Of a stretch of 64,000 bases of DNA, positions 368-62,532 are shown in pieces; positions within the stretch are counted from its first letter, which is position 1; each line of letters begins with the position of its first letter. Both the position numbers and the translations under genes were made by a program. This DNA is from Ulva prolifera. Its lineage: Eukaryota > Chlorophyta > Ulvophyceae > Ulvales > Ulvaceae. Under the pieces are notes generated by a model. That model had not been told where the DNA came from and did not search any database. It worked only from the letters and a program-made list of their open reading frames with translations. The stretch spans positions 434,001 to 498,000 of the forward strand of contig CM041196.1 in assembly GCA_023078555.1 (NCBI GenBank), given 5' to 3'.

Positions 368-435
368 AAGTTTTGTATGTAGTTACAAAGGACAGAGGCC
401 GGGCATCGAGCCATCGCCAGGAAGTTTTGTATGTA
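368..435 (+). repeat. R1 element flanked by 14-nt direct repeats
   Basis: The 14-nt sequence AAGTTTTGTATGTA occurs at 368-381 and again at 422-435. It brackets a 40-nt segment (382-421) that starts with the R1 core GTTACAAAGGACAGAGGC. The arrangement resembles an insertion with a target-site duplication, or a local duplication around the core. The same layout, with unrelated flanking repeats, is seen at 21.5, 30.3 and 62.1 kb. Confidence 0.7.
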
Positions 436-534
436 TGGATGACTGCATGGCTGTATCCATTTGAACATTGATAGATGTTAAATTTGGGACCGAATGAAGC
501 ATCCAAGAAGATATTTTGGACACTTCTACGCACG

Positions 535-575
535 CACCTGCACCTGCACCTGCACCTGCACTGTGCAGGTGACCT
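535..575. repeat. CACCTG hexamer microsatellite
   Basis: Four to five tandem CACCTG units are followed by an inverted piece (CTGTGCAGGTG), giving a short palindromic end. I see no gene in positions 436-1100. That stretch holds only low-complexity GGTGG/CATGG-rich and GGGTGTG-rich sequence (about 655-690 and 890-935). Confidence 0.75.
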
Positions 576-1103
576 GCACCTGCGCCATCGCCATCCAGCC
601 ATCCAGCGCCAGCAGAACTTGTCCTAGCTAGCGCCACTTTGTCCTAGCAAAACGTATGGTGGCATCATGGTGGTCATGGTGGCATGATGACACTACTAAA
701 GGGAAAGCGGCACAATGGTGAAGCGCGGAAGGGGCAACGGTGAAGGACCTCCTGAGGCATTGTGGTGGAAGAAGCAGTGACATCCCGCAGTGGATGGATG
801 AAGACCCAAGCTTGGCTCAGGTATGGCGTCGGGGAGCATCCTCACTTCATGGTGCGAAACGACCCCGCCACAGGAACTAGGTGTGCGAGGGTGTGGGAGG
901 GTGTGGGAGGGTGTGGGTGGGTGGTGGGGATTTGTCCTGTTGCAGCGTGGTCTGTCCTAGCATGCATCTTTGCTGATTTTGTTTTGCGCATGTGCACTGC
1001 ACCGGCGACGTCGTTGTGATGGATTGTTTGCAGTAATGATTGCAGGGATCCCCGGAGCGGCTGCCGCAGGTAGGCACTTCTGTACGCGTGCGCGCGACAT
1101 CCA

Positions 1104-4100
1104 TTGAACAGCTGGGAACTGTGTGCAACCAGTCTACTCAGGGCAGTGACTATTGAGTTACAGCGTTTGCAAGTGGCTGAACGTGTGTCTTCTGTTGGCG
1201 CTGCAAGCTTCAATCTAGTCTGCTTGGGCCATGAACCGGCCAAATGCACATCTCCATGCCACCTTCGAACTGACAGCCATCCGTGCGCAGGCGGCTGCAC
1301 ACATTCCTCCGATAGATCAAGCTTCGGCGTTATGCAACACTGAATTCACAGGTGGTGCGGCTCCGCTTGTTAGCGCACACTCACGTGACCGATGACAGGT
1401 CGGAACGCAGTCGATGAACCAGGCATATCGACATCCTTGACACTTTCTGGCACAGTGCTCAGCTCATCTCACATTGCGTAATCAACGTACATACGAAAAC
1501 TCGTAGTCCGGTGTCTTGAGGTCGCTGGGCGCTCACCGGCGCTTGTGCTGTGTGTGAAGGTCCTTGGCGGGTGCCTTAGAGTACCCCCGGTGTCATGCAC
1601 CGCGCCTATTCTGTCTGGCCTGCTGGCACCAATTGCTGACATCTGTGCAATTTGCCGTACGCCAGTAGCAATGTCGTCGTGAGGCCTGGGTGACTGCATG
1701 TGGGGCAGTTTGTCCTTACACGGGGACCAGTGGTACACACTATACCATATCTATTCTAAACTCCTGCAGTTCATGTGCATACGCATCTGCTGCCTAGAAT
1801 GAGTTATCTCGTAGACTCTGCTTGTGAGCTCAGTTGGAGCCTTGAGTGTTCTCTGCTGTTGAGTCGGGGCTGGAACATGACGGGAAGCTGCAGAGGAGTC
1901 ATAGGCTTTGTACTATCGCCTGGCCTGCAACTGCAGACTGTCTTGTCGCTGCCGCTGAACTCATGCAACACTGGAACCATCTTAAGTTTCCGACGCACTT
2001 GCAGCTTTCCCCAAGGTCTAGCGCTGGTCAGAGGTGCCTTCACCAGCATGCTCAGCACACAAGTCGTGAAGTTCAGGCTGCACGTCTCAGACGAAGACCA
2101 CAAAGATCGCCGTCCGCCTCATGAATCGCTCAGTCCGCTTTGCACCTCGCACCAAGTCGAGCCCGCAGATTGCGGAGTGAGCGGGAGCTGCCATGTTCCA
2201 GAGGATGTGGAGTCCAGCCAGCACAACAGCTGTGTAAGCCATTCTAAGCACCTGCTGGGACTTGGAGGGAGAGGGCCTTGGGTGCACTCCGATGAGCTGT
2301 GTTGCAGCACCGGTGTGCGCAGCCAGGCAACCAGTCAGGGAAGCAGCAACAGCAGCTGGCGCAACCCCCGGGTGCTGGCGCTCAATGCACTCATTGCACA
2401 AGCAGAGGTGTGGACCCGTCTTGCGGCCGCAGCAGATCTGTTAGCAAGCCAAGCCGCATGGGCATGGGTGGCTGTCTCATAGTTTGGGTGGCGGCCTTGG
2501 CCCCGACAGTCGTTCGCTGAAGTCCAACTGGACTGAAGACTTTTGGCCATGACAGTGTATGTACTCACTAACGTACTTACAGTGTCTTGATGCATCGTCA
2601 CAATAAACATGTTGTTAGACATAGCTAAATCCTTTTGGACAGGGACAACTCGGAATCCGGGACCGAAACAGGCATCCAAGCTACGTGCCGAATCCAAGCT
2701 ACAGCGTTGGTTTGGACTGAAGATCAATTGGCGTGGACTCCTCCATGGTGCACATGTCATGGATTGACCCCTGCGCACGGGTGGGTGAAATGCAGCTGCT
2801 TCGGTCCTCAGCGAATGCGTGCTTGCAGACATGGAACAGACATGTCTGCATGTGTGTGTACGATTCTGCAACTCGTACTGATCAGCCAGCAGCCTTTTGT
2901 GCGCAGGACTTCAAGGCCCACACAGCCGCCAGCAGCGGATCAGCCCAGATCTGCGGTTCCGAGTGCCTGAACCATACCTCTGCCTCTCGGACGACCCGCA
3001 GGCTCGGCAGCACCGGTGCCGCGTCTGGCTCAATGAGCTCGATGTCCCAGATCCTGAACACGCTGTCCAGGCTGGACGAGGCTCCACGTGCTCCCAAGGC
3101 CCTTGCCGCAAGCACAATGCATGACTCTCTGACACGCAGGCCCCCACCTGGGAGCGCAGCTGCGTTCATGCCACCACTCATCGGCGTGCCAGTTCACCAC
3201 AACGCCCCCAACCTGGGGACGCCCCTGGAGAGGCTCCGCGCATGCTCCGCCATGGCTTCAGCTCCTCTCATTCCTGAGGGACACCCATGCATAGCTTTCA
3301 GGCCTCGTGGTGTGTCTGCAGCAGTGCCAGAGAACGCCACAGAGAGGGCTGGTAGGTCCAAGTTGTGGGGGTCACGGCCGGGCAGCCCCTGTGCTCTGTT
3401 GGAGCTGGAGAGCCCAGACCCGCAGACAGATCAGCGCAGTGAAGTGTCGCCGTTGGCGAAACCGCGTGTCAAAGGTGCTGTTCATGGCGGCTCTCTCGGT
3501 GTGCATGATCTGAGCCGCGCCGGAACGGGGCCAGGGCAAATGTGACCCTTTTTTGTATGCCTCCAGATGAGTCTCGGCGTTCAGTCGAAAGTGGTGCACC
3601 GTCGGCAGGTCAGGACTTGAGTCAGAGCACGTGCACAGCCATTCCATGTTCTGCACGGCGGTTCCATGTTTGCTCTGCATGATGCGCACTTGCGAGGCAT
3701 GGCGCGGAAGATGTGGCGCTGGTGCATGGCGACCGCCCCCCTCGGTCGCTTCAGACATGGCTCTGCCGTGTTGCTGTCGCCTTGTACATGTGCCGGTGGC
3801 GGTGCCCTCATGCATGCGCCGTAACATACAGTCAGCACGTTGCACCGCCCCTGTTGGCTCTGTGTGCACAGACAGATCTCAAATGTGGCCATACCATGTG
3901 ATGCGCAGATGTTTTGTGCGGCCCTCCTCAGCCAAAATCCGCCGCGGCCGGCGACAATCACGGCGCATCACCATGGCTGCCCTGCTGCAGGCGCCGCCTG
4001 CGGCAAGATCTCTGTTCCGGCATACGCCATGCCTGTGCGCCTCACCCACGCGCACCCCCGGCCACTGGAGTGGGACCATCCGGACCCCGCCGTGCGCGTG

Positions 4101-5110
4101 CATGTGCGCAGCAAGTGGCTCGCCGGGGAGCTTGCGCACGTGCAGCGCCCAGCACAGTTTGGCATGGGGCAGCTCTGGGACCCAGAGGAAGAGCACCTGT
4201 GGGGCCACATGGTCGGGCCGTCCCATCACGACGCCGCCCAGCTCCTGCGGCATGGCTTCCCCGCACCCTGGCACTTGCGCGGCGCGGCGCGCGTAGCTGC
4301 AGGGGTGCATGAGGATCCGCATCCGCGACAGTCCTGCTTGAAGGCGCCATTGGCGTGTTGCAGGCGGGGAGCCGCGCAGGCGCTGCAGGGCGCGAAGCTG
4401 CGGTTGTCTGGCATGCTGGCAGCCTGGCCGCAACCCCGGCAACCTGCGGGCATGTAGCTCGCTGGGGATGCGGACACTGGGGGGGCGGACAGCACAGCCA
4501 GTCTGCTGCGGGTGCAGCTCCCGCCTGTGAATGCGGATTGCACTACCGCGTGTGGCAGCGTGCTCATGTTGTGCGCCTGCCGACACGCGCACACTCACTC
4601 ACACCCAGGCGGTGCTGTGATGCCGGCTCACCATCGGGAAGGGAGGTGCCAGCGCCTGCATGGCCTCGTCGAGCGCGGCTGAACGCCGGTGCGTGCGTCG
4701 TACGGTGCAAGCCGTGCGCCTTGGATCCGGCAGGGTTCATCGTGGGGCTGAGAGATACACAAACACAAACCAATGCTGGCACCTTGCTGTCACTGCGTCG
4801 GCCGCATGCTCTGGGCCGGAACTCTGCCTTCAGAGCGGCACGGGTGAAGGGTGTGCATGGGTGCGGCGCCGATCATTGGCTGATTTGGATTGGCGCTGAG
4901 GAGGGACGAAATGGCAGAAGTGCGCCGTGCCGGGGCAATGAGGCGGGGGGGGGGGGGGGGGGGTTGTGTGGGCATGCGGTGTGCTGATATGAATATCATG
5001 TCCACAGTTTTCTGGCATGGTGCCGCAAGTGGCTGGAACGCTGGCTGTTGGCACAAGCACAGCATTTGGCGTCAGTAGTACCATTGGCTGTGCTGCTGTT
5101 GAACGGCACA
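1104..5110 (+). pseudogene. Copy A of an unrecognised membrane-protein-like family, frame-disrupted
   Basis: This block aligns along most of its length with copy C at 12.27-16.37 kb, and its 3.96-4.44 kb part also with copy B. Matching stretches include 1121-1345, 1805-2515, 2820-3500, 3960-4440 and 4600-5100. On the + strand it shows LVRGAF..MLST, NPRVLALNALIAQAE, a short hydrophobic stretch (GGCLIVWVAALAPTVV, about 2465-2512), AYAMPVRLTHAHPRPLEW and LLRHGF. Relative to copy C it lacks one base at about 2433-2440, which puts the hydrophobic tail out of frame. It also has a net +10 nt at about 4660-4700 before a VVRCKPC motif. I therefore read it as a decaying copy. The strand is not certain, because in-register antisense frames are also open. 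I do not recognise the family. Confidence 0.45.
4945..4963. repeat. Poly-G tract (19 G) in copy A
   Basis: An uninterrupted G run lies in the 3' part of copy A, before the last open hydrophobic stretch. Copy C has a much longer G tract at the equivalent place (16006-16060), so the tract either predates the duplication or arose twice at the same spot. Confidence 0.9.
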
Positions 5111-5210
5111 CCATTGCACAGTGATCCTTTCTGATTTAGCGCCGTCCAAAGGGGTAGGACTCTGAGGCAGATTTACATCAACTTACTAGCCATACCCAAA
5201 CAGCACGATG

Positions 5211-5618
5211 TCAGCTCTGAACGATCGGGACAGGCAGCCCAAGGGACGCAGTTCCTGGTTCTGGATCAGCAAATTGTTGAATGTTGCTCTCTCGCGTTCG
5301 ACCTGATCCGGCCTGCCTGAAGCTCGTACCTGACACTCTTCCCAGGCAGGAATATTCATATGATACATGGCCCAGTCCCTTGATTGCTTCTGAACAAAAC
5401 ATACCGACCTGGAGCTGCGGGTTGCAGGAAGCAGGTGTGAATTCTGTGTCCATGGACTCGAGCGGCAAGGCGCTGCGCCGCGGGAGGTGTCGCGCGCACT
5501 GCCCAAGGTCTGTTTCTATCATACCAGATCCAGCTGCACATCCGTACAGATGTGGAATGAGATGTTCCAGGTCAGAACCAGCTTTCACCACCGAATACAG
5601 TTCAGGGCAGGGCTGCAA
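5211..5618 (-). CDS. Hypothetical single-exon frame, 135 aa
   Basis: An ATG-started open frame of 135 codons reads on the - strand with a fairly balanced composition (MQPCPELYSVVKAGSDLEHL at the start). An overlapping + strand frame of 119 codons (5281-5640) is also open, so neither is well supported. I recognise no domain. Nothing else is visible between 5110 and 5840 apart from AT-richer sequence. Confidence 0.18.
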   Translation of the reverse strand: MQPCPELYSVVKAGSDLEHLIPHLYGCAAGSGMIETDLGQCARHLPRRSALPLESMDTEFTPASCNPQLQVGMFCSEAIKGLGHVSYEYSCLGRVSGTSFRQAGSGRTRESNIQQFADPEPGTASLGLPVPIVQS

Positions 5619-5847
5619 ATTACAAGTTGAGCCTGTTTGAGGCTTAACTGTCAGGTAAATAATTTGAGGATTACCCCCAGCCCTTGTAACTAACCCTTGA
5701 TTCTATTTTGGGCAATTGATCTGTCTAAGTGAATGTGTAACTTGCATCAAGTCAAAACATGAAGTTGCAAGTTGAAATTTTGATATTTGGGTTGTTTCAT
5801 TTGCGCAACTGTCATCTCATGCTAGCCATGCTTGCATGCCTCATGAA

Positions 5848-5956
5848 TAGGGCTGGCCTATACCGGTATAAGGTTTTATACCGGTATATGGGTATAGGGT
5901 ATATATACCCTTATACCAGTATATGGAACCCAATATACCCCTTGGGGCCAGCCCTA
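5848..5956. mobile_element. 109-bp hAT-like MITE with 8-bp target duplication
   Basis: The element begins TAGGGCTGGCC and ends with its exact inverse GGCCAGCCCTA, giving 11-bp terminal inverted repeats. It is flanked on both sides by the perfect 8-bp direct repeat CTCATGAA (5840-5847 and 5957-5964). An 8-bp target duplication with TIRs of this kind is the known signature of hAT-superfamily DNA transposons. The interior is AT-rich and palindromic, with repeated TATACCGGTATA. It has no coding capacity and would need a transposase from elsewhere. Confidence 0.85.
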
Positions 5957-5964
5957 CTCATGAA

Positions 5965-8000
5965 TGCTCACCAACAACCACTTGCTGCACCCTGGGCACG
6001 CCCATTTCATACTGTGTCATCAGATCTGCTACTCATTTGTGATAGCAAGGCCAGCGAGGGGCCACTGACTTCATTTTTCTGATGTCTGAACATGGCACTG
6101 TGATGCATGGCACAAAGGCTCGGAGTGACCAGGGTAAAAACTGCATGCACGTCAATGCAGCTGCTTCAATATGATTTTGTGCAAGATAGCTGATCTGAAC
6201 AGGCATCATGACTGCTGTTTTGTGACTTGATCTCACCTGCTTCCTCTTCTGTGAGTTGTCCAGGCGGCCATCATGTGCGAGAGTACTGTACAAAATGCGC
6301 GCCCGAGGGGAGCTATGGCAACCCAGTGGTATAGCGGCCATATCACTGAATTGCCACAGGAGTACACTCAGTCAGAAATGTGTTGCAACGTGACACCACT
6401 CTCATGACAGCCATGGCTGCCTTTGCAAAGGCAATCATGGCTGCACCCAGTACCAGCCACGCTGACACGAACCTCGTATATGTGAGCTGCACTTGTAATG
6501 AACCCTTGATATGCCGCCCTGAGTCCAGGTGAAAGGCCTCAAAGACCCCATCAGTCGCTGGCTGAGCCCTCGAGTAACGTGCACGAAAATTGGGCCTAGG
6601 CTTAAGCTTAATTAGCTGTTCTGAATTAGCTCTTAATTGCAATTCCGAGTGCCTTAACTTGCAGCTCTAGTTCAGGGATATCAACCTCGTGCGAGCATCA
6701 TCGCGCGCGATCGCGTTTGTGTTTGCAAAAGTCAGAAGGCCGCTCTTCAAGGACAGACGATCCAGAATTAAGCAAGGCGTATGCTTCCGGTACTCGTTCC
6801 ACCACATGCTGCGCTGACTAAACGCTTCTGTGCTCTTGGAGAAGGATTCATCAGAAGGATTCATCTTTGCAGCCTTGATTGCTGTCTCCCTTCGCCCATG
6901 CATGCGGACGGGGCACAGATGCATGGGCAACCAGTGCACTTTTCTACCAGATAGTACACAGAGGCATGGGCAAACCGACGGCACTCACGGTGTGCCGCCT
7001 GCTGCAAAAACCGGATTCACACATAGCTTCAACAGAAAGCATTCTCACGCTGGCGATGGATGATGGGACACATCGCGAGGCATCGGTCATGATATCACTG
7101 GTTGCCTGTATCTCCACGATCATAAACCATGCACAAAAGTGCGCGGTGCATGCCCGGCTTCGGCAGGGTAGATGCCACTTGTCCATTCGATATCAATAGT
7201 CTTCCTGCAGATGTATATGGGATTCCTAGCGGCAACCGGGATCACGTCGGGAGTGCATACGGGTCGACTGTACACCTGGACTGGGAACAAGGTACGATGT
7301 TTAATGGCCATCGCCAGCATGCGTGGTCCCGTTGATCCGATAGACGTAATGTCGTACATTGCTTGACTTTTGAGAACGCGTCCTGCCCCGCGCTGCAAGA
7401 TCCCTCTCGCTTACATCGAGCCGCTACGCACGCGAGGATAGGCTCAAATCGCGCTGATGTCACACATGACGAGGCTCAGAAGCCTATAAAGTGGATGGGC
7501 AGGTTTTTGTTTGTCGCACGCGTGAAGAACGGCTTGCTCGTGCCGGGCATAGTACATACATCTGAAGCTCCACGGGCCCGCTCTGCGCTGCAGGCAAGTC
7601 CTCGCCGCATCCAAGTCCGTATTCATCCGGTAACCGGTGTGATTCGATCACTCATGGGTTGGGTGCATGCCCTATCGTCGCATTGAGTGAAGCCGGTCAG
7701 GCGTCCAACGGCACCAGTCTCACCAGCGAGTCAGCCACGACACGACCAGATGATCAGTCAGGCCAGCTGCTGGTATGCGCCCATGGCCCCATCAATTCGT
7801 TGAAGCCATAATTTTGCGTACGATCGAATACGATCGTTCTCAAGACTCGTGTGGTGGTCGCCTGTTCAGACCATGCTCTGAAATGTCTGGCTGTGTTCTT
7901 CCCAGAATGGCCCAGCGGCCTCCTGTGCCCTGGACGCGTCTGACGATTTGCATAGCTCCGGTACTACTTCCAGCTGTAGCATGCGGCCCAGGCTGCTGTT
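5965..8000. other. Stretch without a supported gene, scattered short open frames
   Basis: Several frames of 60-107 codons are open on both strands between about 6.0 and 7.7 kb. Examples on + are 6879-7199 and 7363-7686, and on - 6343-6642. Base composition is less GC-rich than in the confirmed exons, and no domain, splice-phase chain or repeat support was found. The + frames at 6.9-7.7 kb could be exons of a small gene, but I could not join them. Confidence 0.3.
6317..6355. repeat. 39-nt hairpin repeat, copy 1
   Basis: This imperfect hairpin (arms starting GGCAA and ending TTGCC, around a central AGCGGCCAT) has a second copy of equal length at 29422-29460, 32 of 39 bases identical. At one stem position a G-C pair here is T-A in the other copy. 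No function is known. Confidence 0.6.
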
Positions 8001-8713
8001 GTTGTTTGTCGCAAGTGTGGCGCCCTTCACGCTTCCATGCTTCCGCAGGGGGGAAGCATCAGCCACAGGTCAAGTAGACTGATGCGAGGCGCAATGCAGA
8101 CCGCGCCAAAGCTGATGCCCGTTCTGCCCGCAGCCTCGGCATGGAGAGCAACACTTTCTGGAGAATTGTCCATGGATTACGGCTCCCCCTGCCATGCTAT
8201 GGCCACAGGCGCATTCCCTGCACACAGGGCCAGCCACACGCACACCATGAGCGCCATGAGTTCCTCAGCTCAGCCGCCCCTCACGCTTCCAGCTTCCCGC
8301 ATCCAGAGCCCAGCCGCTCATGAGCCTCCCGATTATTCAGGCCCTCGGACGTCTCCCGAGCGTTCATGCCCTCAGGCGCCTCCCGATCATTCAGGCCCTC
8401 AGACGCCTTCTTCTCCGAGCAGTCTGCATTCTTACGCCCGTGCATGTTTCGCTTACCAGCCCACCCCGCCCAAGCACCACCGCACCAGGGCCAGCTCTGC
8501 TACAGCAGCACACCGGCTCGTGCGTTCTCCCCACTGTGCTACTGACCAATTGCCCCGTCCCAGACAGCAGCCGTTCGCGAGCAGCAGTGCTTCCTGCTGC
8601 TCTAGCTCCTGCAGGCACCCGGTGCGTACATGAGAGTGTCCAGGTCACACAGCTCCTAGGAAAGACAAGCGGCAGCTTTGCAATGAGGAACGGGCACATG
8701 CTCCGGGGCTCCC

Positions 8714-11027
8714 TTGCATTCTCCGGGACTCCAGCTGCAAGCAGCTCTCCTGGGCGAGCCAGGCTGCCACGTGGCGGCATGCATATCACGCTGCCTCATC
8801 CTACAGCCGCTCTGGGCTGATTACATTGGTCTGCCCGTCAAAAGGCCCGCCGCCAGTGCTGACTGCAAGCCTGCCAGCAGTGGCGGTCCCATACGCTCTG
8901 GCACCTGGCATCCTCGACGGGGTGAATGTTCAGGCCGGGCGCGCCATACACTTGGACATCACACTGCCAGTACCCACTTGTCAGGTATTGCACATGCAAT
9001 GGCGCTCTGTGCGCTTGTGGGTCGCCAGACCCCATTTTTCAGGACATTTCCAAGCATCGATGTACTTTTCTGGCCCCAAGCATGCTGCAAGGCGACCCGA
9101 CACTGGCGCCGTGGCGCTGGCTGTGAGGCTGCTTCAGTGCAGCAGTCAGGCCTGGCTGCCCAACCCACCGTGGCTGCCAATGTGTGAGGCTGCACACCTT
9201 GTCAGCTGCAGCCAGTTGTGCGCCCGTGCTGTCGGCATTCCTGTGGCGATGGCGGCGTCGGACGCGGGGGCTTGACCAGCGGCTCTCAACGGTTGCTCGA
9301 CATCCATGTCCTAACAGGAGCATGTGGCCGCACTGTTCCCAGTGTGAGCGTTTGGGTGCCTTTCTCCATCACGGGACTCGGCTGCTGTCAAACTCCGGGT
9401 TCTGGTGAACTCGGCGACCCAGGCGGCCGCTTTGCCGAGACCGCGGGCGCCACACAATCTTACAACAGAACTGATGCGGAGCGCTTGTGTGGCTACACAT
9501 GCTGCCATGAACATGCCCTCGGCGGTGCAGGCGGATCGCGCCCCCGCCATGGCTGAGCGCCTGCAGACACTCCGTACAGCCCGCGGCGGGTCGCGGGCCT
9601 AGAACCGGGAGCTTGACTGGCTGCCACGACCCGACGACGGGCTGCCGCACGCCCGGGCGTACATCACGGCAAATAGCCCGCTGTCGGGCCAGCGGGCATC
9701 GGAAGCCGCCAGCAGCCTCCACCCAGGACGGGTGGGTCCGAGGACTTCTGTTCCTGACGCAGAGTGCAATCAAGCTGGAAACGATGTCCAAGGAACGCAG
9801 TCAACTGTCATACACCGCAATGGAGAAAGTCTTGGCACTGGGCAGACATCTTCACAGGCAGATACTTGGTCCCCTGAGACACAATTCCGAGAGTATGTCA
9901 TATGCGATGTTCATTACACTTGCAGGCTGCCATCGGGTGTGCAGCAGCACAGCTGTGGCCCGTCGTATGAGTCGGTGGGTGCACATTCTCCTGGTGGCTT
10001 TGCTGCTGGCCCCGCTCGGTTGCCGGTCGTGCCAAAGCACTGACGGCACGGGCAGGGCAGGGTGGCTGCACACATGCCTGTGGCTGCGGCAGGTCAGATG
10101 GCACCGGAGTCGTCCTGTGTGTCGCCACCTCGGGTGTTGATAGCAGGCGCCATCGGCGTTTTCCTTGTGCCTGACATCTATGAAGGCCGGGGCCGAGAGG
10201 GGAGCGTGCGGGCGTCGGGTTCATCTGCAATGAGCGGCGCTGGCGTTCGGCGCCGCGGCACCCCACAGCCACCCATGCCCCTCAGCCCAGGCCGTGCCGT
10301 GCTGACTCAGCACTGCTGAGTATCCGGACGGGACGGTGTGCCGTGCACAGTGCTCGGTCGGTGCTCCAACAGAGCAGCGCAGCCAACCCCAGGGTATCCT
10401 ACCCTGCGTCAATGCCTCTGGAGAGCTAGACCTGCTTTCTTGAGCATGCCGCGTGCTGCCGCGTGTACACGGCGGCGGTCGTGATCACAGTGGCCATGGC
10501 GCAGGGAACGCGGAGCGTGGCAGCGGCGGCCCCGGGCGGGCGTACGCCATCCCTGTCCGCCTCGCACACGCTCACCCCGGCCACTGGAGTGGAACGATCC
10601 AGACCCCGCCGTCCGCGCTTATGCACGCCGCGCGTGGCTTGCCGCGGAGGTCCAGCACGCGCAGCGCCCAGCGCAGCCCAGCACGGCGGCCCCCGGCCTG
10701 CCAGAGGAGCCCACCTAGGCCAGCGTCAGGCATGTTGGTCGGCTGCGGATGCTGGGGCCGACGCCGGACGAGTGCGCGCAGCTGCTGCGGCACGGCCTCC
10801 CGGAGCTGCGCCACCTGCGCCCCCAGGCAGGCGCCGAGGCGGCGTGCTTCCCCTGCAGGGGCAGGTGGCGCAAGCCGTGTGTGGCGTGTTGGCCTTGGCC
10901 GGGGGCGCTTTGGGTCGCCGCGGCACGCCTGCGGCGCATGAGCGCCGCCCTGAACACGAAGTGGTCGCCGCGCTCCTTCACAAGGCCAAGAACAATGGAA
11001 GCCTCCGCCGCACCGGATCAAGAGTAG
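8714..11027 (+). pseudogene. Copy B, partial relative of copies A and C
   Basis: The 10.50-10.90 kb part aligns with copies A (3.96-4.44 kb) and C (14.94-15.45 kb): AYAIPVRLAHAHP, then LEWNDPDPAVRAYARRAWLA, then LLRHGLPELRHLR. The first two pieces are in different frames because one C is missing in the run before GGCCACTGGAG. A TAG also follows at about 10720. Upstream are open + strand stretches at 8826-9275 (149 codons), 9380-9602 and 9766-10040. The last includes a strong hydrophobic segment, WVHILLVALLLAPLGC, at about 9975-10025. Overall it looks like a diverged, truncated or frame-broken family member. Confidence 0.4.
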
Positions 11028-11844: not shown

Positions 11845-11881
11845 TCTTGGTGCTTGATACAGTGTCTCTGAGATTGAGGTG

Positions 11882-16004: not shown

Positions 16005-16005
<1 letters not shown>

Positions 16006-21474: not shown

Positions 21475-21570
21475 GGTGTTCCTGTGTGTGTTTCAAGGAC
21501 AAAGGCCGCCCGCCTAGGTGTTCCTGTGTGTGTTTCAAGGACAAAGGCCGCCCGCCTAGGTGTTCCTGTG
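21475..21570 (+). repeat. R1 element, two tandem copies between three 12-nt direct repeats
   Basis: GGTGTTCCTGTG occurs at 21475, 21517 and 21559. Between these lie two identical 30-nt segments (21487-21516, 21529-21558) containing TTTCAAGGACAAAGGC, so the period is 42 nt. The core is the R1 core in + orientation. The segment can be read as GT...TAG and is reminiscent of a tiny intron-like insertion, though far shorter than the confirmed introns except one. Confidence 0.8.
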
Positions 21571-26141: not shown

Positions 26142-27370
26142 CGTATCCGCCACAGCCAGCCTGCAGCCGCATCGAACCACTCCGCAGCAGCAGTATGGGG
26201 TCGGAGAGAGGGCGGGGGGATGCATGGCATGGCACGCGTCGCGCCCGTCCAGCCGGTGGCCGCGCAGAAGAGCTTGATCGCTGGTAGACCGCCGTGGTCA
26301 GTTTGCACATGGCATCGGCAGGGCTGGGTGAGGGTGTGGGTGTGCCGCCAGCATTGCAGAGGACGCCGAGGCGGTGGCGCTGTGCATGGCGGCCGAGCGC
26401 AAGCCCTGCTGACGGACCGTAGCCGAGTGCCTTTTCTTTCTAGTGCATACCTGTGTGTGTCTCCGCTCCTCGGCAGCGTTCCGGTCCCTGCTGCGCAGCC
26501 CTCCGCGCAGCGGCCGCAGAAGCGCGTGCTCGCTGTGGCCGTTGAGGCCGCGCGAGTCCTCAGCACCGATGCGCTGTGTGGCAGCTTGTGGCGGTGATGG
26601 TGTGATTGCACGTGAGGGCATGCGATCGCAGCAGGCAGGCCTGGGAGGGGCTCGGTGTGATGAACATGTGGCGTGCACAGCACAGGCGGCTGGCAGTCGA
26701 TGGCCACGTGGCCTGCGCTGCACCACCTACCTTGGCGTGGCCAGCCTGCGGGCATGGCTGTGCATGCACTCGTGCAGGCCCGCCTCTTCTAGCGTCTGGG
26801 CAACATGCAATCGCTTCTGCTGCCGGGTCCGGCGGCGTCGAAGGGTAGGAGAATCACGATGTGTTGCATCAGAAGCAGAGCAGTTCAGAACATGCCAGAT
26901 CATGAACGATGTCTGACACCCACTGCCCATGGAGGACTCTGAAGTGTCGAGGACTGGGCGCTCGTTACAGGTCCAAAGCAGGGCTTGCTTGCATCCATGA
27001 TGTGAATCATATCACATCATGTGATCCACATGCTAGGGCTCTGCAGACCTGCTCCTGTCCGTGTGTTCACACACAAGCACATGATATGAACCGCAATGCG
27101 TACATGCAGCTGTGCCCAGCGTAGGTGAGGACAGAGGACTGTGAGGCTATTTGTGCTTGGAGCACTTTGCAGTATGTTCACCTGCTCAGGGCTAGTTCTG
27201 AGACCGGTTCCAGCTGTGTTTTTGTGTGTGGGCCGTGGGGACTGTGCGTGCGTGTGTGGGTGTGTGCTTGGCGGTCTGCGGATCTGTGTCGTTTGCTGCG
27301 CCGGTGATGGGTTTTCTGGGCGTGGTGGTGGGTGTTGCGTGCGTGGGTGTCTGGGTGTGTGCTTCGTCTG

Positions 27371-27425
27371 CTTGCTTCTTTCGCAGTGCTGCCCGCCTTG
27401 CTGCCTTTGTCCTTGTAACACACAC
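27371..27425 (-). repeat. R1 element, long form
   Basis: About 55 nt here match the copy at 62058-62110 (both carry TTGCTGCCTTTGTCCTTG). The core GTTACAAGGACAAAGGC reads on the - strand. Unlike the other loci, I see no clear direct repeat around it. Confidence 0.8.
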
Positions 27426-30295: not shown

Positions 30296-30353
30296 AACGT
30301 TGCAACCTACCTGACCAGCTTTGTCCTTGTAACACACACGAACGTTGCAACCT
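30296..30353 (-). repeat. R1 element flanked by 13-nt direct repeats
   Basis: AACGTTGCAACCT lies at 30296-30308 and 30341-30353, bracketing 32 nt that contain CTTTGTCCTTGTAACACACA. This is the R1 core on the - strand. The flanking repeat is unrelated to those at the other R1 loci. Confidence 0.75.
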
Positions 30354-52673: not shown

Positions 52674-52678
52674 GCACA

Positions 52679-52921: not shown

Positions 52922-54405
52922 TGCACCAAGCTGTGTCGGCCATGTAACCTGAGCTATCAGCTGGACGTAAAGCAACATGTGTACAGAATCTGAACGAAAC
53001 ACAACTGCTCAAGAATATGCGCTGCCCAGCGGTTATCCGTCCAGATGTCGTCATGCATGAAGCACTTGAAGTGGCACCCACCGAACGCGCCGGAGCTGTA
53101 CCTACGCATCGCGCTCATAACGTGGCTATGTTGAGTTGGGCGCAACTGACTGCATCAACGTATCAGAGTCGGTCAAAGTAATTATGAGTCATTATATTAT
53201 GCATCACGGGCTTGATGCGTGCTGGTAGACATGCGTACCATGGAGGAAGGGGCGTGTCAACCAGTTTCTTTCGACATCAAAACTTCACATGCCTGGTGGA
53301 TCTTGGAGTGGGCGTCCGTTGTTCATGTTACCGTTACGTGCGAGTGCTGAGCCAGGCCCGTTTGTGCCAACGATGCCATCACGGGGCGACGCTGCCGATA
53401 TCGTATATACATCAGCATGTCATGGCGAGTGAAAATTTTCATGCGACCTGCAGGGCGTGCAGCTTGCATCAACGATGAAGAACGGCTCCGCCATTGTACC
53501 TGCGATGGGTACTTACCCAACATGGCGATGGATACTTACCAACGCCTTCCTGCCTGGCAGCAAAATCGATGGGTGCCTAGCCTTCCACGGGTTCCAGGGA
53601 TACCAGGATATCCATTTTTCAGGCGCATGCGAACTGGGGCAATATTTCGTTTCTGTTTCCGTTTGTGAGCTCTGTTGTCGCAGCGCCTGCAGGTTCAGCA
53701 GCGCATTGGGCGAGTTTGGATTTGCTGTCTTGCCCCAAAGCAAAACCGCGCAAATCTCTATCAACAGTCAGCTTGAATCTGAGTGCTTTCTTGGTATGGA
53801 ACGTCGTGCTCGAACCTGGCCTGCTGTTGCGCACCAGTTGTGGCATCACCTGCGAGCAAGTGCCCAGGCCAGCGGGCTCTACACCTCGACTTCTGCCGGA
53901 TCAGCTTTGTCAGCTGCGTGAAATGCTGCGAATTGAGTCGTTTTGCTGGTCGAGCACTGCAGAGAATACATATCATATCACATAACTTGTGCCATCACCG
54001 GGCCACATAACGGAAAGGCACAGGTCCTTTGGTGCACCTCGCACAGGCCTCCTTTCTCATTACAGAGTAGTAACACGCCAGTCTTCAAGGCTATCAGCAT
54101 GGACCACTGGCACCTCTGGATGTCCTCGATACACCCATGTTCTCGAGATACCCGTATGCTCGTTTTTATCCCCCAGCGCATCTACGTCGTGTCCTCAACC
54201 ACATCTCATGGCAGAGTCACACAAGAACCTCCTGCCAACTGCTTGCCTACTTCTGCAGCAGCAAGTTGTAGAATTGCAGGCCTCGTCCACACGGAGGCCC
54301 GGGCTCGCATACTTCCTCCGCCTCTGCAGCAGTACCTGGCAGAACTGGTGGCCTCGCGGCAGAGTGCAGCAGATCGCGGCCAGCGCTCCAGTGTTGCGTC
54401 CGATT

Positions 54406-54496
54406 GGGCCCGATCACATGGAACAATTCCGAAGATTCAGAAACAATTTCGAGGTGGCAGTCCTGGAAATGATGCAAAGCGTCCCAACACTGCAGC
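54406..54496 (+). repeat. R2 dispersed repeat, copy b
   Basis: It starts GGGCCCGATCACATGGAACA and matches 37869-37959 across 91 nt with no net length change. Confidence 0.8.
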
Positions 54497-54682
54497 GCTC
54501 GCCCCGGCCATCCGCTGGCGCTCCTATTACCCACCCTCACGCGGCTGATCTCTCTCGGACCACCCCTCCCAAGGACCACGGCGGCGCCCGCCGCCCCCCA
54601 ACACACATGAACTGATAGAGCTGCTGCACCAAAGCCACTCATACAGATCTCGCAATAACCACACTCCACACGCCTCGCCAGC

Positions 54683-54724
54683 GCTGTCAAGAGCCAGCGC
54701 TCTTGACTGCTGGCTCTTGACAGC
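54683..54724. repeat. Perfect 16-bp hairpin
   Basis: GCTGTCAAGAGCCAGC (54683-54698) and its exact inverse (54709-54724) are separated by 10 nt. The position, about 370 nt beyond the 3' end of the NIPSNAP frame on the same strand, fits a 3' end-processing or terminator-like structure, but a foldback repeat is equally possible. Confidence 0.75.
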
Positions 54725-55051
54725 GACGCACTGCCAGCAGCCGTGCGCCCACAACAGAGCCCGTCAATCAGAACCACCTCTGCCGCCGTCTCTCGCACTC
54801 AAACGTCACAAGTACCGAGAAGCGACTCCCTATCTCGATTGCGCAGCTCTCAGTCACTGCGCACACCAAGCTTGCCGCAGCTTCTATCCCCTGGCAACTC
54901 GAGCCCTCGGTACTCGATGCTCAACTCGGCATGGCCACGCTGCAGCGCTTGCACGCGCCGCAACCGCCCGTACTCCCACCAAGCATGCCCACGCCCATAC
55001 CTCAACAGCATGCCACAGCATGCCACCGGGCCCGGGGCCGCACGTGCGCGG

Positions 55052-57407
55052 TCACTGCCACGGCGAGAACCACAGCGGGCGCAGCAGCTCGGTGTGGAAG
55101 AACTGCACGTGTGGCGCGATGTTGCCGACGGCCGCCTTCCACTCCGGGGCGGTGCGGGAGCGGCCCCGGCCCGAGACGCTGCCCTGGGAGTTGCGGTAGC
55201 GCCAGATCTCGACAAACGTGTTCAGGGTGCCGATCTCGGTGTACCCGAAGAACACCGGCGTGCCGTCGTCCGCCGACGCGATCTTGTGCGGCAGCCTGCA
55301 CAGCACGCACAGCGTTGTCCCAGCACGGCGGCGCGCCTAACACACCAGAGAATGACACCTTCAGCCATACCGCGGATAGCTGATTCGCGAATTAACACGG
55401 CTAATTCATAGGCGCAGGTTGCCTTACATATCACTCTCAGACATTCGATTCCATCGCTATCCGTCCCAACTTTCTGTGTCCTCGGTGAGCCGTCAATCGA
55501 TGCATGGTTATCTTCAATGCACGCAGCGAGTGCAGGCTCATGCGAGCACCACGGCCTCAGAGAACGTGCCATGCATTGAAAGCGCGGCATGCGTGCGGGC
55601 GGCAGCCAGCAGCAGTGGGACAAGGGGGCGCACCCAGCCACAAGCTGATCGATGACCTTCGGCACCGTGCCGTAGCCTGGGTGCAGCTGGTACTTGCGAA
55701 TCTCGTACATGCCCTGCACGCAGCCCACCGTTGCTCTGCTCGGCGCTGGCTTGAGCTCCCGCCGCACGGCCGCATGCGTTCCTGCGCACGTATCAGCGGC
55801 GCCACACACTGCGCAACGGCGGCAAAGGGGCGAGCGCTGAGTGCTGGAAGGCAGGATGGAGCCCGGTGCCGGGCTTGGCCGCCGACCGGCATGCCTGTCG
55901 TGCATGCATGCGCCGCCCATGGGCACACTCCACCGGCCGGCAGCTAGCTGGGCGGCGTGCACAGTGCTGCAAACTGAGGCCTCGGCCTGAGACCCATGTT
56001 ACAGTAGGTGCAAGCACCAGCGCCACACACGAGCTGGCCATGGGCTTGCCTGGCCAAACACTCGCATCTAGCATCGCCTCGTGAATGTTTTCACTGGAGT
56101 TTGATGCGACAGGGTGGCAAGCAAGGGGGGTGGGGAGGAGATGCGGGGGCGGACCTTGATGCCGTCGTCGGGCATCTGGAATTTGAGCGTGGACTGCATG
56201 CCAAGCGCCTCGTAGATGGGGGCCGCCTCTCTCATTATCATTGATATCTGCACCGGTGGCCACCTCATCTGTCAACTGATCACCACTTACCGGGTCCGGT
56301 GCTTCTGTGGACAGTTGCTGGTCACGCATGGTGCTCGAAGCCTCAGCTGGCGCTCTGCCATGCAGCGGCCGGTGCTCACGTGACGCACTGCACTACACGA
56401 TCAAGACCGACAGCTGAATCGGCGCTGCACCATCTAGAGTCATGCATTACATACAGCTTGGGCGCAGTGGCTGCAGCGGATGGGGCGGTCACCTGCGGGC
56501 CGATGACAAACGGGCGGCCGCGGTTGAGGAACTCGGTCCACTGTGCGCGGTTCAGCATGTCCTTGCGCGTGCGCTCGCGCTCGTTCATGTCGGCGTACGC
56601 GTACAGGTGCACCGTCCGGTTGAGCACCCCCCCGACCTCCGGGGTGAACATCCTGCACCCCGGTGTTGCGTTGGCTAGGCTGACACATGGAACAATTCTG
56701 AATAGTTCAGTCTATTTTTTGGCTGGCGGCCCTGAAAATGCTGCAAGACCAGCGTTGTGACGAAGGCTAGCGAAATCTGTTCAGATGCAACAGCACATGA
56801 ATATTTTAGTGTGGATACGTCTGGACCGTGGAGAAGCAAGCGCAGGCTGCCTCTGCCTGGATCGCTTGGCATTAGCGGTCGTTGCTGGGTGCCAACGCTG
56901 GGATGCCATTCTTCGTCTAATGCACAGCGCAGGCTGCAACCGAGGCCGACAACAGAAGCGTATTCGAATTCTGCCAACTCTATGTACCCATGGTCGCAGT
57001 ATAAGTTAACTTCTGGCGTAGCCAAGTAGCACGGACCCGCCATCACTTGAGCAGCGCTATCCACAGCGGGAAGGTGACCAAGACACATGCAAGCTCGCAG
57101 GTCACACCGGAGCCACAAGAATAATCTGCGCACCCAAGAAATGGCATGTGCTTGGTTCTTACATCAGACGCCACAGCATTCTCGTCCAGATACTCGTTGA
57201 AATACTCCTGCAGAGACAACTGCTGCCTGAACAGCTCCGCTCGCTCATCTTCAAAACTTTAAACATGAAGTACATGAGTCTTACCGGCTTGATTGTGTAA
57301 TCGCGGATTTCCACAAGACCTTGCCCTACTTCAGATGACATTCCTCGGGACCACAAAGACGTAGACCATGCCACCGACGGCCGTAGCCGAGACAGGGCAA
57401 AAATCAT
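55052..57407 (-). CDS. NIPSNAP family protein, six exons (257 aa)
   Basis: The - strand exons, 5' to 3', are 57407-57285, 57207-57134, 56652-56493, 56247-56155, 55713-55634 and 55295-55052. Donors are GTAAGA, GTGCGC, GTGACC, GTCCGC and GTGCGC, with all phases consistent. The start MIFALSRLRPSVAWSTSLWS is Arg/Ser-rich without acids, fitting a mitochondrial targeting peptide. Two NIPSNAP repeats follow: VEIRDYTIKP...VLNRTVHLYAYADMNERERT in the first half, and MYEIRKYQLHPGYGTVPKVI...YTEIGTLNTFVEIWRY in the second. The length matches the family. NIPSNAP proteins are dimeric alpha-beta-barrel-like proteins linked to mitochondria in animals; the algal role is not established. Intron 2 contains an R2 repeat. 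Confidence 0.88.
56680..56760 (+). repeat. R2 dispersed repeat, diverged copy c
   Basis: CACATGGAACAATTCTGAA followed by GGCGGCCCTGAAAATGCTGC aligns with copies a and b, at lower identity. It lies in intron 2 of the NIPSNAP gene. A short related piece (CCGATCACATGTGACAATTC) is in RING-gene intron 9 at about 42967-42987. Confidence 0.6.
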
Positions 57408-57920
57408 GGCCTCAAGATTCTATCAACTCGACTGATTGTTGCGCTCAGAATGTCAACACTGAACGGCTAAGCGTCAGTTACCATCTATGTTTACTCGATA
57501 TTCAAACGGCAGGCCTTCTGCTGCAGCTGCATGAACAGAACACTGGGTCACTCTGACCTGTGGCTCGTCCTTCCTTGCTATGAGGCGCTTTCATTCCGCG
57601 CTCTGAGGCCTGCTGCCTCGTCATTGGTGTCTGACATGGCATGCCACGCGATCGAGCCGTCGCGATGGTGATCTCCCCACGTGCCTGGAACACTGTGCAA
57701 GTATGTACGTGCCCAAAACACAATTTATGCATCTTCTGAAGGTCAACAAGCAGCGCCAGTGGAAGTGCAGCTCACACTCGCGACAACCGCACTTGCAGTT
57801 CTGCAGATCGGTTCAGCAGTCGCTGCATGAGCTGCAGTCGGCGCCCAGATGCAGAGCTGCAGAGGCCCCATGTACACTTGTAACAAAGTTCTTTCCTGAA
57901 AAAATCTGTCGCGGTGACGC

Positions 57921-58300
57921 CTATCGCCGGACTGGGGCCGATTCCAGGCCTCGGTGGGATCGCCTGCAGCGGCCTCAGCGCTCGTACTGATCACTGCGGC
58001 AAACGCTGACGACATGGTAACACAAACCTACCTGCAAACGAAGTCTTTCCATTTCCCGCGGCCTACGACTACCGAGTGACCGCGCGTGGCTTGAATCGTT
58101 CGATTTGTCGCTCTGTAGTTCATCCCATCGAGCACTGCAGGGCGGACACCGAGGGCGCGGCTGCCACTCTTTCCCGGTCTACGGTAATCTAGAGGCCTGA
58201 ATGGATGATGCTGCTTCTCTGCCACCCTCCTTGCAATCGAAGTTGAGATGCCGAATAAAGTCGCAAGCAAAACACCCTCGCAATCCATAGACATGCACAC
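57921..58300 (-). CDS. Small unrecognised protein, two exons (103 aa)
   Basis: Exon 58300-58032 ends at a textbook donor CAG|GTAGGT, and exon 57963-57921 follows GCTGCAG; both are phase 2 and the intron is 68 nt. The protein starts MCMSMDCEGVLLATLFGIST, includes PFRPLDYRRPGKSG and GHSVVVGRGKWKDFVC, and is strongly basic at the end. The length, basic charge and possible leader would fit a small organellar or ribosome-associated protein, but I recognise no family. It lies between the NIPSNAP and endonuclease V genes on the same strand. Further 5' exons are possible. Confidence 0.42.
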
Positions 58301-59895
58301 CGTCCCAACCCCAGTAGGTGCATGAGGTAGCTATGCCGACGTGGGGATCTGCCATGCAGATTTTCGAGTCCTGATGATCTGTGTATCTGCCAGCTTACAC
58401 TGTCCGGGACATCTACACACCCCAGGAGTCGAGTCGGGAGTGCACAACAGCTGAGGTCTACCCCTCTGCGACGCAACACAGCCAGGGGCAATGATACGAG
58501 CACATGCACCCACATGTATTCAACACTCGTGCTGGCTGTCCCTTGTGCAAGTGGGCCTGCCCGAAGCAGATGACAGTGGCCAGACCAGCGTGTTAAGGAT
58601 GTCCCGCTGTGACCACATCATCACCTACCTGTCTGCCTCGTTGAGCATGATCATGCCCACTTCTGTCACTCTTTCTGTCCCTGGGCCGCAGGTCTATCGA
58701 GCCGCTGCATCTTGTGACCTACAATAGGGTACCCATTCAATCATGCATGGTCACTGCTGTCGCGCGCATGCGGAACAATCTGGTTCAGCAGGGCGGGCTG
58801 TTGAGAGGGCCGGGGCACGCCTGTGGCCACACGTCACAGAACGCCCCTGACGTGTGCACAACGAAGCTTCTCACTTTCAAGCGTAGAGTACGGCAACAGC
58901 ACCTGACTAGATCACATCTAAAATCTATATCGCCGAACGCTGTAGTGCTGGGCACACTGCCCTTGCACCTCTTTCTGCTAATCTGACACAGGATAGTTGG
59001 CCTACCTGAGGTTGCGGTGTGATGCAGCGTTCCTCCAGGCGCCGTGTCCCCTCCACAGTTCACAGCAACTGCTCCTGCAAGCTCCTGGGCACTTCACCGC
59101 ATCGTTCCCGGAAGATCCCCCCCCCCCCCCCCCCCCCCCCCAGCAGTAACGCCACAACTAACGCCGGCCGGGGGGGGGGGGGGGGGAGAGAAGTGCAACG
59201 AAGCCCTGCCTCCATGCGCGCAGCAGACTTTGCCGAGGTCAGAGGCGGAGGCCCGCCGGAGGAGTGACCCCACCCCCCGCGTCTGCAAGCAGCGCTCTGC
59301 TGCCGCCTGCAGCATCACCATGCATGCATAATCGCGCTGGCTCCCACCGACATGTAGGGTTGAAAGTACACGGATATGGCACACACGCACACACCAGCGC
59401 TGGCTGCATGTGAGGCTCTTATGAGTTTTCCGTTGGGCACACGCACGCCACGGTTCCACTCTCCAGGGACGTCCGACATGTCGCATTCAGGCGCGAGCGC
59501 GACAGCGGCACATCATGGATGCATGCCGCGGTCAGGGGGCAACAGAGTGGCCGCACCACGCGTTTGGGCCTGAAGCGCGCAAGTGTCCGGACCTGCCTCC
59601 AGCTCCATCCTGCTCGTGTGGTAATGCAGTGGGCCGTCTGCTAGATGCGGTACGCAGCCTGTGTTGCCCCAGCATCTCCTTCCCCCACCCAATCCATCAC
59701 GCCTTAGCTGCAGCGCTGCCTGGCTTGTGCATCGGGACAAATGACCTCGACCGGCAGATGTATGGCCACCATCGCACCATGTCGCAGCGCAGCGCCAAGC
59801 CAGCATGCATGCGACCGGCACTACAGCCGCAGAGGCCGCAGCCGAGCAGGCACCAGCAGCCACAGCGCGCAGCATGCCTGATACGGACACGCACT
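58301..59895. other. Intergenic stretch downstream of the endonuclease V gene
   Basis: Open frames on both strands are short or low-complexity. A C25 tract and a G17 tract face each other at 59117-59186. Frames at 59094-59486 and 59513-59899 (-) are likely 3' UTR shadows of the endonuclease V gene. Confidence 0.4.
59117..59186. repeat. C25 / G17 facing homopolymers
   Basis: A pure C run (59117-59141) is followed after 28 nt by a pure G run (59170-59186). They could pair into a hairpin of up to 17 G-C pairs or form a quadruplex. Confidence 0.88.
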
Positions 59896-62532
59896 TCACG
59901 GCTCAGAAGCGCAGCGTGCAGCCGCTGCAGGGGCCGGAGTGGCGGCGGCAGCGCCAGCGGCGGAGGCAGCGACGGGCGGGGGGCATGTGCGCGTGGCAGG
60001 GTTGGTGGCGGAGAGGGTGCGGATGCAGGCGCGCGAGCGGAGGTCGGCCTGGCGGATGGGCTCGGGGATGCGGGTCACGCAGCACGCCAGCGTGACGCGC
60101 ACCGCGGTCTGCAGGCTGACCATGTGCCCTGCAGGCACCCGCAGGTTCGGCGTCGAGCAGTTTGTAAATGGATAGCCGTGAAACAAAGTATAAAAATGCT
60201 ACGGGCCGCAGCGGGGGCGCACTGCCGAGGGCGCAAGCCCCTGCAGGTGCATGCACAGGACCATTTGCAGACGCAACGGCCGCTGCCACGGTGCGCCTGC
60301 TGATCGCACGGCTCGCAGCGTCAGCGTCCATCGTGGCACGAAACGCCCCGCAGTTGCGGTGCGTGGCGCATCGCGTCGTGCTTTCAGCCGCGCCCTGGCG
60401 GCCGCATGCGGTCAGTGCTCAGACTCACCATCACCGGAGCCTTCCGGCAGACAAACGCCCCCGCCTCCGCGCAGTTGTGCACATCTGAACACCTGCTGCT
60501 GGTGTGGTCTATCAACTTCCGCACACACGTTAGGGCCACGATCGAAGCTGTCATCACGCAGACCCCACGCGTCCCAAGTCCCAGTGCCAGAAATACCACA
60601 GCTGGGCACAGCAAGGCAAGATGATGCTCGATGCACTTGCAGCCACAAAGCCTCTGCCGGGCATCGAAGCACCACCGTCACGTAGGCGACGCGGCACACC
60701 TGTAGACACGTAGATCGGGCGCCGCGCGCCATGCATGCCTGCCACCGCCACCCCAAGCACCTCCCCAGTCGTCCTGCTCACCAGGTCCAGCCTCTGCACA
60801 ACCTCCCCACGCGCAGACGGCACGACCACGCATGGACCGCATGCATCATGTGTCGCAGTGGCACTTGCACTGCACTCCGGGCTCGCGGAATCTCCGCCGG
60901 CGCCGCGCGGCGCGGCTGCGCTTGGGGCCTCCCCGCCACCTGTGCCTGCGGCGGCGGGGCTGCCGGGTGTGGGGACTGCGGCGCCGCCTCCACACGTGGC
61001 AGCCGGCATTCGCGTGTCCAGCGCGGCAGACAGCGCGGCGCGCGCGGCGCGCTCGTGCAGCCCCTCCAGCTGCAGCAGCGTCTTTGCGACGCCGACTGTC
61101 GGGACGCCGCAGCACACGCCGAGGTGCGACGCCGAGCCGCAGCGGCGGTGGTGCAGCGTGCCGTAGCCATCCACAAGGAACACCTGTGGCCACGGTGGGA
61201 GCGCCGCAGCCTCCACGCCGCCGGCCGTCGCGCTGGAGGCTCGGCTCGGCCGGGGCGACCGGGAGGAGGGGCAAGGCGGGGGCTGCGCACGGCCACGGAG
61301 GCGGCTGATGAGCGTGGCGTAGGCAGGGACTTCGCGGAATCCGAGGAAGCCACTCTTGTAAGGGACCGAGTGGTCGAGGACCTCGAAGTCCTCATACACC
61401 ACATCCATTGACTGCATGTGGCGGCGGTGTTGAGCGGGGAAGGTGGGAGGCACGGCGTTTATGCGCAGTGGGCAGTGGGTGATAGACAGGTTGTGGGTCA
61501 GCGGTAGGTTTCTTGGCCTGCTGAGGCAGGTGGGGCGGAGATGTGTTGCTGTTGGGGAGATTGTAGACATGCTCCTATGCGTGGCAGGGGGCTGGACGTC
61601 TGTGGCTAGCAGGTTTGCACTGTAGAGGTAGGGGACGATAGTGCCATGGAAGGAATGGCTTGTGCTGTTGCAACCACGGCCAGCTGGCCTAGTTGCGACA
61701 GGCACAGCAGCTGATTGACGCAAAACTCAGGAGAGTCTCAAGGAGCAACGCAGCTTGCGTGTGCAAGGTTCATCGAACACTGTTGTGTTGAACTGGAGGG
61801 TAACATTGGCATGTGCTGAGAGGGACAGAGAGAAGGGACGCACTGGCAGCTCACAGATGACGATGCACGCTACTGCTTGCTCCGGAGCATCCCTGCACGA
61901 CACCCCAGCTGGAAAAAGCGTTTCCGGTCCCTGACGGCTTGATACAGCGCCGAGACGAGCAGTCAGAGACCCGGGCCCGCTGCCACAAGCTGTTGGCAAG
62001 ATGCCACTTGTTAGCAACATGCCACTTGGAGAGGCAGGGCAAGAGCTGACTTCGTCGGCTTGCTCCTTTCGCGGTGCTGCCCGACTTGCTGCCTTTGTCC
62101 TTGTAACACATGCCACTTGGAGAGGCAGGGCAAGAGCTGACCAGAAGAACACTGCCTGTTGCGAATCTGAAGCAGGCACATAGTAGTACCACACGGTGCA
62201 GCAGGGCTGAATCGTACGGATCGGCTTTCTCGACCTTCCCATCGTCCGTGCTGATATCCAGTCCGGCAACATATCGCAGTGCCTCAGGCCTGTCGCTCAA
62301 CGGCTGCCCGTCACCAGCGATCTCCCACGTCTCAGCATCGTCGTACGACACTTGCGTGGCCATTTCCATCTGCTGCCTGGGAGCAGCTGGGAGCTGTTGC
62401 TACGAAATTTACAGGCACTGTAGGTGCTGCAGCGAGCACTTCATGTGAATATATACACGGAGAGTGTGCGTACCGTTTCCATTCCGAAATCAGATCTAAT
62501 GAAGTAGATTCCGTCATTGCGATTGTTGCCAT
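59896..62532 (-). CDS. ENDOV: Endonuclease V, five exons (about 416 aa)
   Basis: The - strand exons, 5' to 3', are 62532-62474, 62376-62195, 61908-61844, 61411-60700 and 60128-59896. By family knowledge, endonuclease V cuts next to deaminated purines (inosine) in DNA or RNA. Conserved motifs in order are: EWKRQQMEMATQVSYDDAETW; RYVAGLD (metal ligand Asp about 60); AVACIVICELP; VVYEDF; PYKSGFLGFRE (Tyr about 120, Glu about 129); VFLVDGYGTLHHRRCG (Asp about 183); HLGV...PTVGVAKTLL; PIYVSTG|HMVSLQTAV (His about 341, split by an intron); and IPEPIRQADLRSR. All known catalytic residues are present. Two low-complexity Ala/Pro/Gly insertions make it longer than usual. The exon 2 to 3 junction is the least certain. 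An upstream in-frame ATG is at 62592. Confidence 0.88.
62017..62141 (-). repeat. R1 element flanked by 34-nt direct repeats, in ENDOV intron 2
   Basis: A 34-nt sequence starting ACATGCCACTTGGAGAGGCA occurs at 62017-62050 and, without mismatch, at 62108-62141. Between the two copies lie 57 nt homologous to 27371-27425, with the R1 core GTTACAAGGACAAAGGC on the - strand. Confidence 0.85.

Follow-up and report, generated by a model that had tools for sequence, protein, structure and literature searches.

Long interspersed nuclear elements (LINEs) that are copied incompletely leave a characteristic signature, in that the 3' end is fixed, the 5' end is variable and the target-site duplications (TSDs) vary in length. 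LINEs with a restriction-like endonuclease (RLE) often target simple repeats, and an excerpt of PMC4640811 lists Togen as specific for (TG)n and some HERO families as specific for microsatellites. An excerpt of PMC3747384 tabulates (CA)n and (CATA)n as 3' repeats of green-algal LINEs, in its L1 and RTEX rows. Here we compare these systems with a set of very short inserts in 64,000 nucleotides (nt) of DNA from the green alga Ulva prolifera (assembly GCA_023078555.1, contig CM041196.1, positions 434,001 to 498,000, forward strand), which are referred to as the window. An initial annotation had described a tiny core sequence in the window, repeatedly bracketed by perfect direct repeats, and considered it to be unlike the known transposon classes. 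That view does not hold, because the inserts carry the signature of ordinary 5'-truncated LINEs. The sites are almost certainly 5'-truncated LINE insertions with TSDs of about 10-34 nt, and they come from two related families, referred to as F1 and F2. The small copies are ordinary incomplete LINE insertions, some of them just about 15-60 nt long.

Two LINE 3' Ends

The sites of the core were placed correctly, but the core itself is two related motifs that had been merged and viewed from the reverse side; as a single pattern with up to three substitutions it matches just positions 227 and 383. These two positions carry TTACAAAGGACAGAGGC. The other motif, TTACAAGGACAAAGGC, is one base shorter. 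It is complete at 27.4 and 62.1 kb, whereas the 30.3-kb site has 15 nt of it and the 21.5-kb site carries it twice as a one-base variant. Read in the opposite sense, both motifs are a right-hand (3') end, the F1 copies ending in ...GCCTTTGTCCTTGTAAC and the F2 copies in ...GGCCTCTGTCCTTTGTAAC. The exact F1 end occurs at 556 places and the exact F2 end at 777 places in the 88.9-Mb genome, versus none for the controls; the earlier core pattern, allowing two mismatches, has 956 + 908 genome places versus 34 for a reversed control.

Thirty F1 loci were aligned at the 3' end, and the shared sequence extends leftwards for about 25 to more than 800 nt, depending on the copy. The F2 loci that were fetched likewise have a common 3' end and differ in how far the shared sequence reaches to the left. 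Overall, the copy lengths form a ladder from about 24 to more than 800 nt with the 3' end in common, and this combination of a fixed 3' end and a variable 5' end is the shape of 5'-truncated LINEs. Nearly all of the matches to one F1 locus, L061, begin at its base 717 or beyond. The idea that F1 is an 802-bp full-length element was dropped, because L061 is itself truncated and another locus, L053, continues into the reading frame. A conserved 3' hairpin was not detected (z-scores of 1.52 and 0.05).

Copies in the Window

The features in the window are the following.

1..212, minus strand: copy Z, F2 LINE 3' end, 507 nt in total and partly left of the window; length and 3' end read in L003
213..225, minus strand: TSD between copies Z and A, TACATACAACACT in minus sense; probably the 5' TSD of Z, reused by A
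226..368, minus strand: copy A, F2 LINE 3' end, 143 nt (the earlier core at 226); 98% match to L005 over 151 nt
368..381, minus strand: TSD of copy B, 14 nt, exact; 369-381 agrees with 213-225 at 12/13 letters and is the TSD of copy A
382..421, minus strand: copy B, F2 LINE 3' end, 40 nt between the TSDs; homology ends at 42 nt
422..435, minus strand: second TSD of copy B, an exact 14-nt repeat of 368-381
21475..21570, minus strand: probable F1 micro-copy in a tandem 42-nt unit, with three 12-nt TSDs and two identical 30-nt inserts
27215..27419, plus strand: F1 LINE 3' end, about 205 nt; a TSD was searched for and none was found
30296..30353, plus strand: probable F1 micro-copy, 32 nt, with 13-nt TSDs at 30296-30308 and 30341-30353
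62017..62141, plus strand: F1 LINE 3' end, 57 nt (62051-62107), with exact 34-nt TSDs at 62017-62050 and 62108-62141

The four repeat-bracketed loci of the initial annotation are correct letter for letter: 14 nt around a 40-nt insert, 12 nt three times around two 30-nt inserts, 13 nt around a 32-nt insert and 34 nt around a 57-nt insert. The list of four overlooked the repeat of the copy at 227 (12 of 13 letters, 213-225 and 369-381), and none was found for the 27.4-kb copy. Copy Z has a 200-nt match at 90% to the F2 reading frame, at 14-213, and the 62.0-kb copy matches F1 in L053 at 98% over 58 nt.

The two smallest cases are more complex. The 12-nt repeats at 21475-21486, 21517-21528 and 21559-21570 enclose inserts made up of a 17-nt LINE end (one mismatch) and about 10 further nt; these 10 nt were found nowhere else in the genome beside a LINE end with up to one mismatch. 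No third family behind this copy was found, its sequence being present at two genome places, both in the window. The 30.3-kb insert has 15 nt of the LINE end (30319-30333), with 10 nt ahead of it and 7 nt (ACACACG) behind. The two are assigned to F1 because each combines 15-17 nt of the LINE end with a CA-rich joint and a TSD.

Target-Site Duplications

The initial annotation had suggested scoring the flanking repeats of genome copies against controls, and this gives a clear excess. The F1 and F2 loci used are the first ones along contig C1 and not a random sample, and they include some close neighbors (L043/L044, L046/L047 and L066/L067). In a 400-nt search, 24 of 58 copies, distinct by their flanks and taken from a first set of loci plus the window, show flanking repeats of 10 nt or more, versus 2.4 expected from swapped flanks. 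A repeat lies near the homology end in 27 of 41 copies, versus 4.0% in controls. The 41 copies are 30 F1 loci, seven of the eight F2 loci (L004 was dropped, as it is the same stretch as L003) and four window copies, among them the three at 21.5 and 30.3 kb; the latter scored as lacking a TSD because 7 nt lie between its TSD and the LINE end. The search window for these 41 copies was placed from the homology end; the searches of the 58 copies and of the 38 copies described next were independent of homology.

A third set, of 38 copies, leaves out the F1-like copies of the window at 21.5 kb (two) and 30.3 kb (one) and is without a shuffled control of its own. Flanking repeats of 10 nt or longer are present in 28 of the 38 when 1,000 nt are searched, and in 23 of these 28 the repeat ends within 10 nt of the end of the LINE homology. 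The suggestion of insertion with a target duplication of variable length is borne out; the repeats stop where the LINE homology stops. Inserts shorter than 65 nt make up 14 of the 28; the 12-nt insert of L044 is a tandem-duplication artefact, yet it is counted among both the 23 concordant and the 14 short ones. Within the window alone the excess is modest, with seven exact repeats of at least 12 nt at gaps of 20-60 versus a mean of 3.65 in 20 block shuffles.

Some duplications of other kinds were also seen. A micro-copy together with its TSD is exactly duplicated in tandem in L043, in L046 and at 21475-21570 of the window (units of 23, 58 and 42 nt). L061 and L087 (C6:5647608-5649089) match at 99% over 1.48 kb; this match includes the flank of the F1 insertion, which was thus copied inside a larger duplication. 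A stretch of about 750 nt (L052:1-755) occurs at 96-100% in at least 18 further genome places. Searches for two telomere patterns yielded nothing.

The Parent LINEs and Their Protein

The longer F2 copies extend into an open LINE reading frame. A 338-amino-acid (aa) C-terminal piece of the F2 protein has at least 120 matching places, and in 31 of the 120 scored the match lies without a stop within a frame of at least 1,190 aa, a count that applies to the scored part (119 scored out of 1,562 candidates). In the 888-aa N-terminal part, RVT_1 (E = 5e-11) is the one Pfam domain detected at E <= 0.1, and the N-terminus has zinc-finger-like Cys/His motifs, recognized by eye. Among solved structures, the best relatives of the F2 reverse transcriptase are R2 proteins and human LINE-1 ORF2 is weaker. 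R2 came out best both with a single sequence and with a profile built from 12 out of 36 relatives. The F1 frame, pieced together by reading across L088 and L053, is homologous to that of F2. The F1 copy read there is itself incomplete, its truncation falling where the reverse transcriptase begins, and a full-length F1 was not found.

Judging from these sequences, the F1/F2 protein probably looks R2-like, with a central reverse transcriptase, a Cys/His knuckle and then a C-terminal domain that resembles the restriction-like endonuclease of R2, and the two families probably belong to the R2-like group of restriction-endonuclease LINEs. They are not R2 itself. An R2-type fixed target, such as the 28S rRNA or another gene, was not found, the F1 empty sites and F2 flanks that were examined having in common only short CA or TACATA tracts; the wider R2 group does not need a fixed gene target.

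Two sets of candidate parents were rejected. The 30 best RVT_1 loci (L009-L038) lack the core. So do six downstream stretches (L069-L074), and the four of these that were scanned carry an integrase and RNase H and look like Gypsy long terminal repeat (LTR) elements. In L088 (C1:1731200-1735300) one LINE copy of each family is present, the F1 and F2 copies being arranged back to back, each on a different strand. At C1:11127055-11196171, C9:3604401-3689263 and other places, F2 C-terminal matches lie on the same strand a few kb apart, as if head to tail.

Alternative Explanations

The short copies could be imagined as a separate SINE-like (short interspersed nuclear element) family with its own short RNA, non-autonomous and mobilized in trans by the LINE, whose 3' end it shares and through which it would be recognized. 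The share of inserts under 65 nt (14 of the 28 bounded by TSDs) would suit such an element, and Chlamydomonas SINEs with a LINE-shared tail are known (an excerpt of PMC3747384). The copies, however, have no common 5' end and range from about 24 to more than 800 nt, L061 contains no tRNA, and L061, L053, L067 and L006 have no Rfam match at E <= 0.5, so we regard this explanation as improbable. The initial annotation had also considered local duplication templated by the core, in which a flanking stretch is duplicated and the core simply marks the breakpoint or template, with no mobility. This accounts for extra tandem copies, namely the exact units at 21475-21570 (42 nt) and in L043 and L046. 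As a general explanation it is hardly credible, because the insert shows homology to a LINE end that is dispersed, the homology halts at the repeat in 23 of 28 cases, including copies of several hundred nt, and the flanking repeats vary between copies. Equally hard to believe is a new class of micro-transposon or an introner-like element. It would fit 30-57-nt inserts with TSDs, the GT...TAG ends at 21.5 kb and the position of one copy in an intron (ENDOV intron 2), the last according to the initial annotation alone. However, the identical 3' end is found on long copies that encode the LINE protein, and wherever LINE homology exceeds 20 nt, the continuity of the copies with these long ones contradicts the idea. 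The GT...TAG falls in sequence that the other copies do not share; it is not a family feature, as the 21.5-kb stretch was found nowhere else in the genome with up to one mismatch.

Several observations weigh against the interpretation as truncated R2-like LINEs. The probable F1 copies at 21.5 and 30.3 kb share just 15-17 nt with the LINE end. Ten of the 38 copies have no flanking repeat of at least 10 nt, L059 among them having an imperfect one by eye, and the repeat and homology ends disagree in five of 28 (L043, L047, L049, L067 and L005). The L043 and L047 disagreements are tandem neighbors where the alignment failed, and the other three are probably long-range chance matches. No real empty allele was seen in this one genome. 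As to the protein, the C-terminal part of F2 has no Pfam match, the stretch of the R2 profile across this domain is not significant by itself, and Foldseek gave no matches for it at E <= 0.001. We regard 5'-truncated LINE insertion as almost certain. Among the outcomes that the initial annotation named as refuting its view was a core belonging to a longer repeat whose internal structure explains the flanking repeats. The first half of this is what we see, the core being the terminal stretch of such a repeat, but the flanking repeats are target duplications and not part of its internal structure.

Target Choice and Apparent Serial Insertion

F1 lands mostly at CA-rich sites. Its 3' flanks start with ACA in 22 of 30 copies and with AC in 26 of 30 (background 2.4% and 6.2%), and 10 of the 19 F1 empty sites shown have ACAC in the first 6 nt of the TSD. 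The F2 ends are followed by TACATAC in 18 of the 23 listed. In copy B, TACATAC is also inside the upstream TSD, so this stretch was already in the target before B inserted; in other F2 copies part of it may be the element tail.

The left end of the window (1-435) is a row of F2 copies, which in minus sense reads TSD, B (40 nt), TSD, A (143 nt), TSD, Z (507 nt), the repeats being, in this order, TACATACAAAACTT, TACATACAAAACT and TACATACAACACT. Because B, A and Z differ in their truncation points, they are separate insertions. The simplest order, apparently, is that Z came first, A inserted into the 5' TSD of Z and B into the 5' TSD of A. The 3' flank of Z, TACACACAAAGTCT, resembles its 5' TSD only loosely. 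Among the 100 first listed of the 777 F2 ends, all on C1, there are 15 same-strand neighbor pairs and one opposite-strand pair within 150 nt; uniform placement gives a mean of 0.15 pairs and a maximum of four in 2,000 trials. For comparison, there are two such pairs among 55 F1 ends on C1. As at 21.5 kb, tandem duplication rather than serial insertion probably produced some of the rows. In L066/L067, three F2 3' ends (C1:4491260, 4491300 and 4491344) are spaced 40-44 nt apart in a minisatellite-like row, immediately after an F2 copy whose frame has 1,197 aa.

We suggest that the LINE enzyme would nick DNA at short sites, CA-rich for F1 and TACATA-rich for F2, where the RNA tail (CA or TACA) could anneal. 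Target-primed reverse transcription would then begin and frequently halt after 15-60 nt, and a second cut 10-34 nt away would produce the TSD. Because the TSD would recreate the target, F2 could insert again next to itself. It is conceivable, although we propose it tentatively, that F2 is an RLE-type LINE whose reverse transcription very often aborts within 15-60 nt and whose TSD renews the TACATA site, so that neighbor insertion feeds itself. If this is true, rows should have newer inserts 5' of older ones, as with Z, A and B, and should range from minisatellite-like micro-copies to successions of full-length LINEs. Should serial insertion prove general in the genome, such rows would be a readable record of successive insertions at the same site.

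Comparison with Known Systems

The mechanism is an ordinary one; what is mildly notable is the tiny size of many copies and the regeneration of the landing site with serial self-insertion. Even at about 15-60 nt, a LINE insertion remains recognizable by its target duplications. Repeat annotation probably misses such micro-copies, and they can be mistaken for a new micro-transposon, an introner or a minisatellite. No title or abstract in the literature searched dealt with LINE copies of 15-60 nt, which is not proof of absence.

The R2-group LINEs (R2, R4, NeSL with Togen, HERO and Utopia) resemble F1/F2 in having a single long frame with a central reverse transcriptase, N-terminal Cys/His motifs that look by eye like zinc fingers, and a C-terminal Cys/His knuckle followed by what in F1/F2 is a probable restriction-like endonuclease. 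Unlike them, F1 and F2 target short CA or TACATA tracts across the genome and not one gene, and very short truncated copies with TSDs are common. The green-algal LINEs whose 3' repeats are (CA)n or (CATA)n (in an excerpt of PMC3747384) are similar, in that F1 is followed by CA and F2 by TACA. They differ in being listed in the L1 and RTEX rows; F1 and F2 have no N-terminal endonuclease domain detected by Pfam. Finally, Zepp and Zepp-like LINEs also form localized clusters of their own copies (an excerpt of PMC8226300). However, Zepp in Chlamydomonas belongs to the L1 clade and is centromeric, whereas the F2 rows are dispersed along C1.
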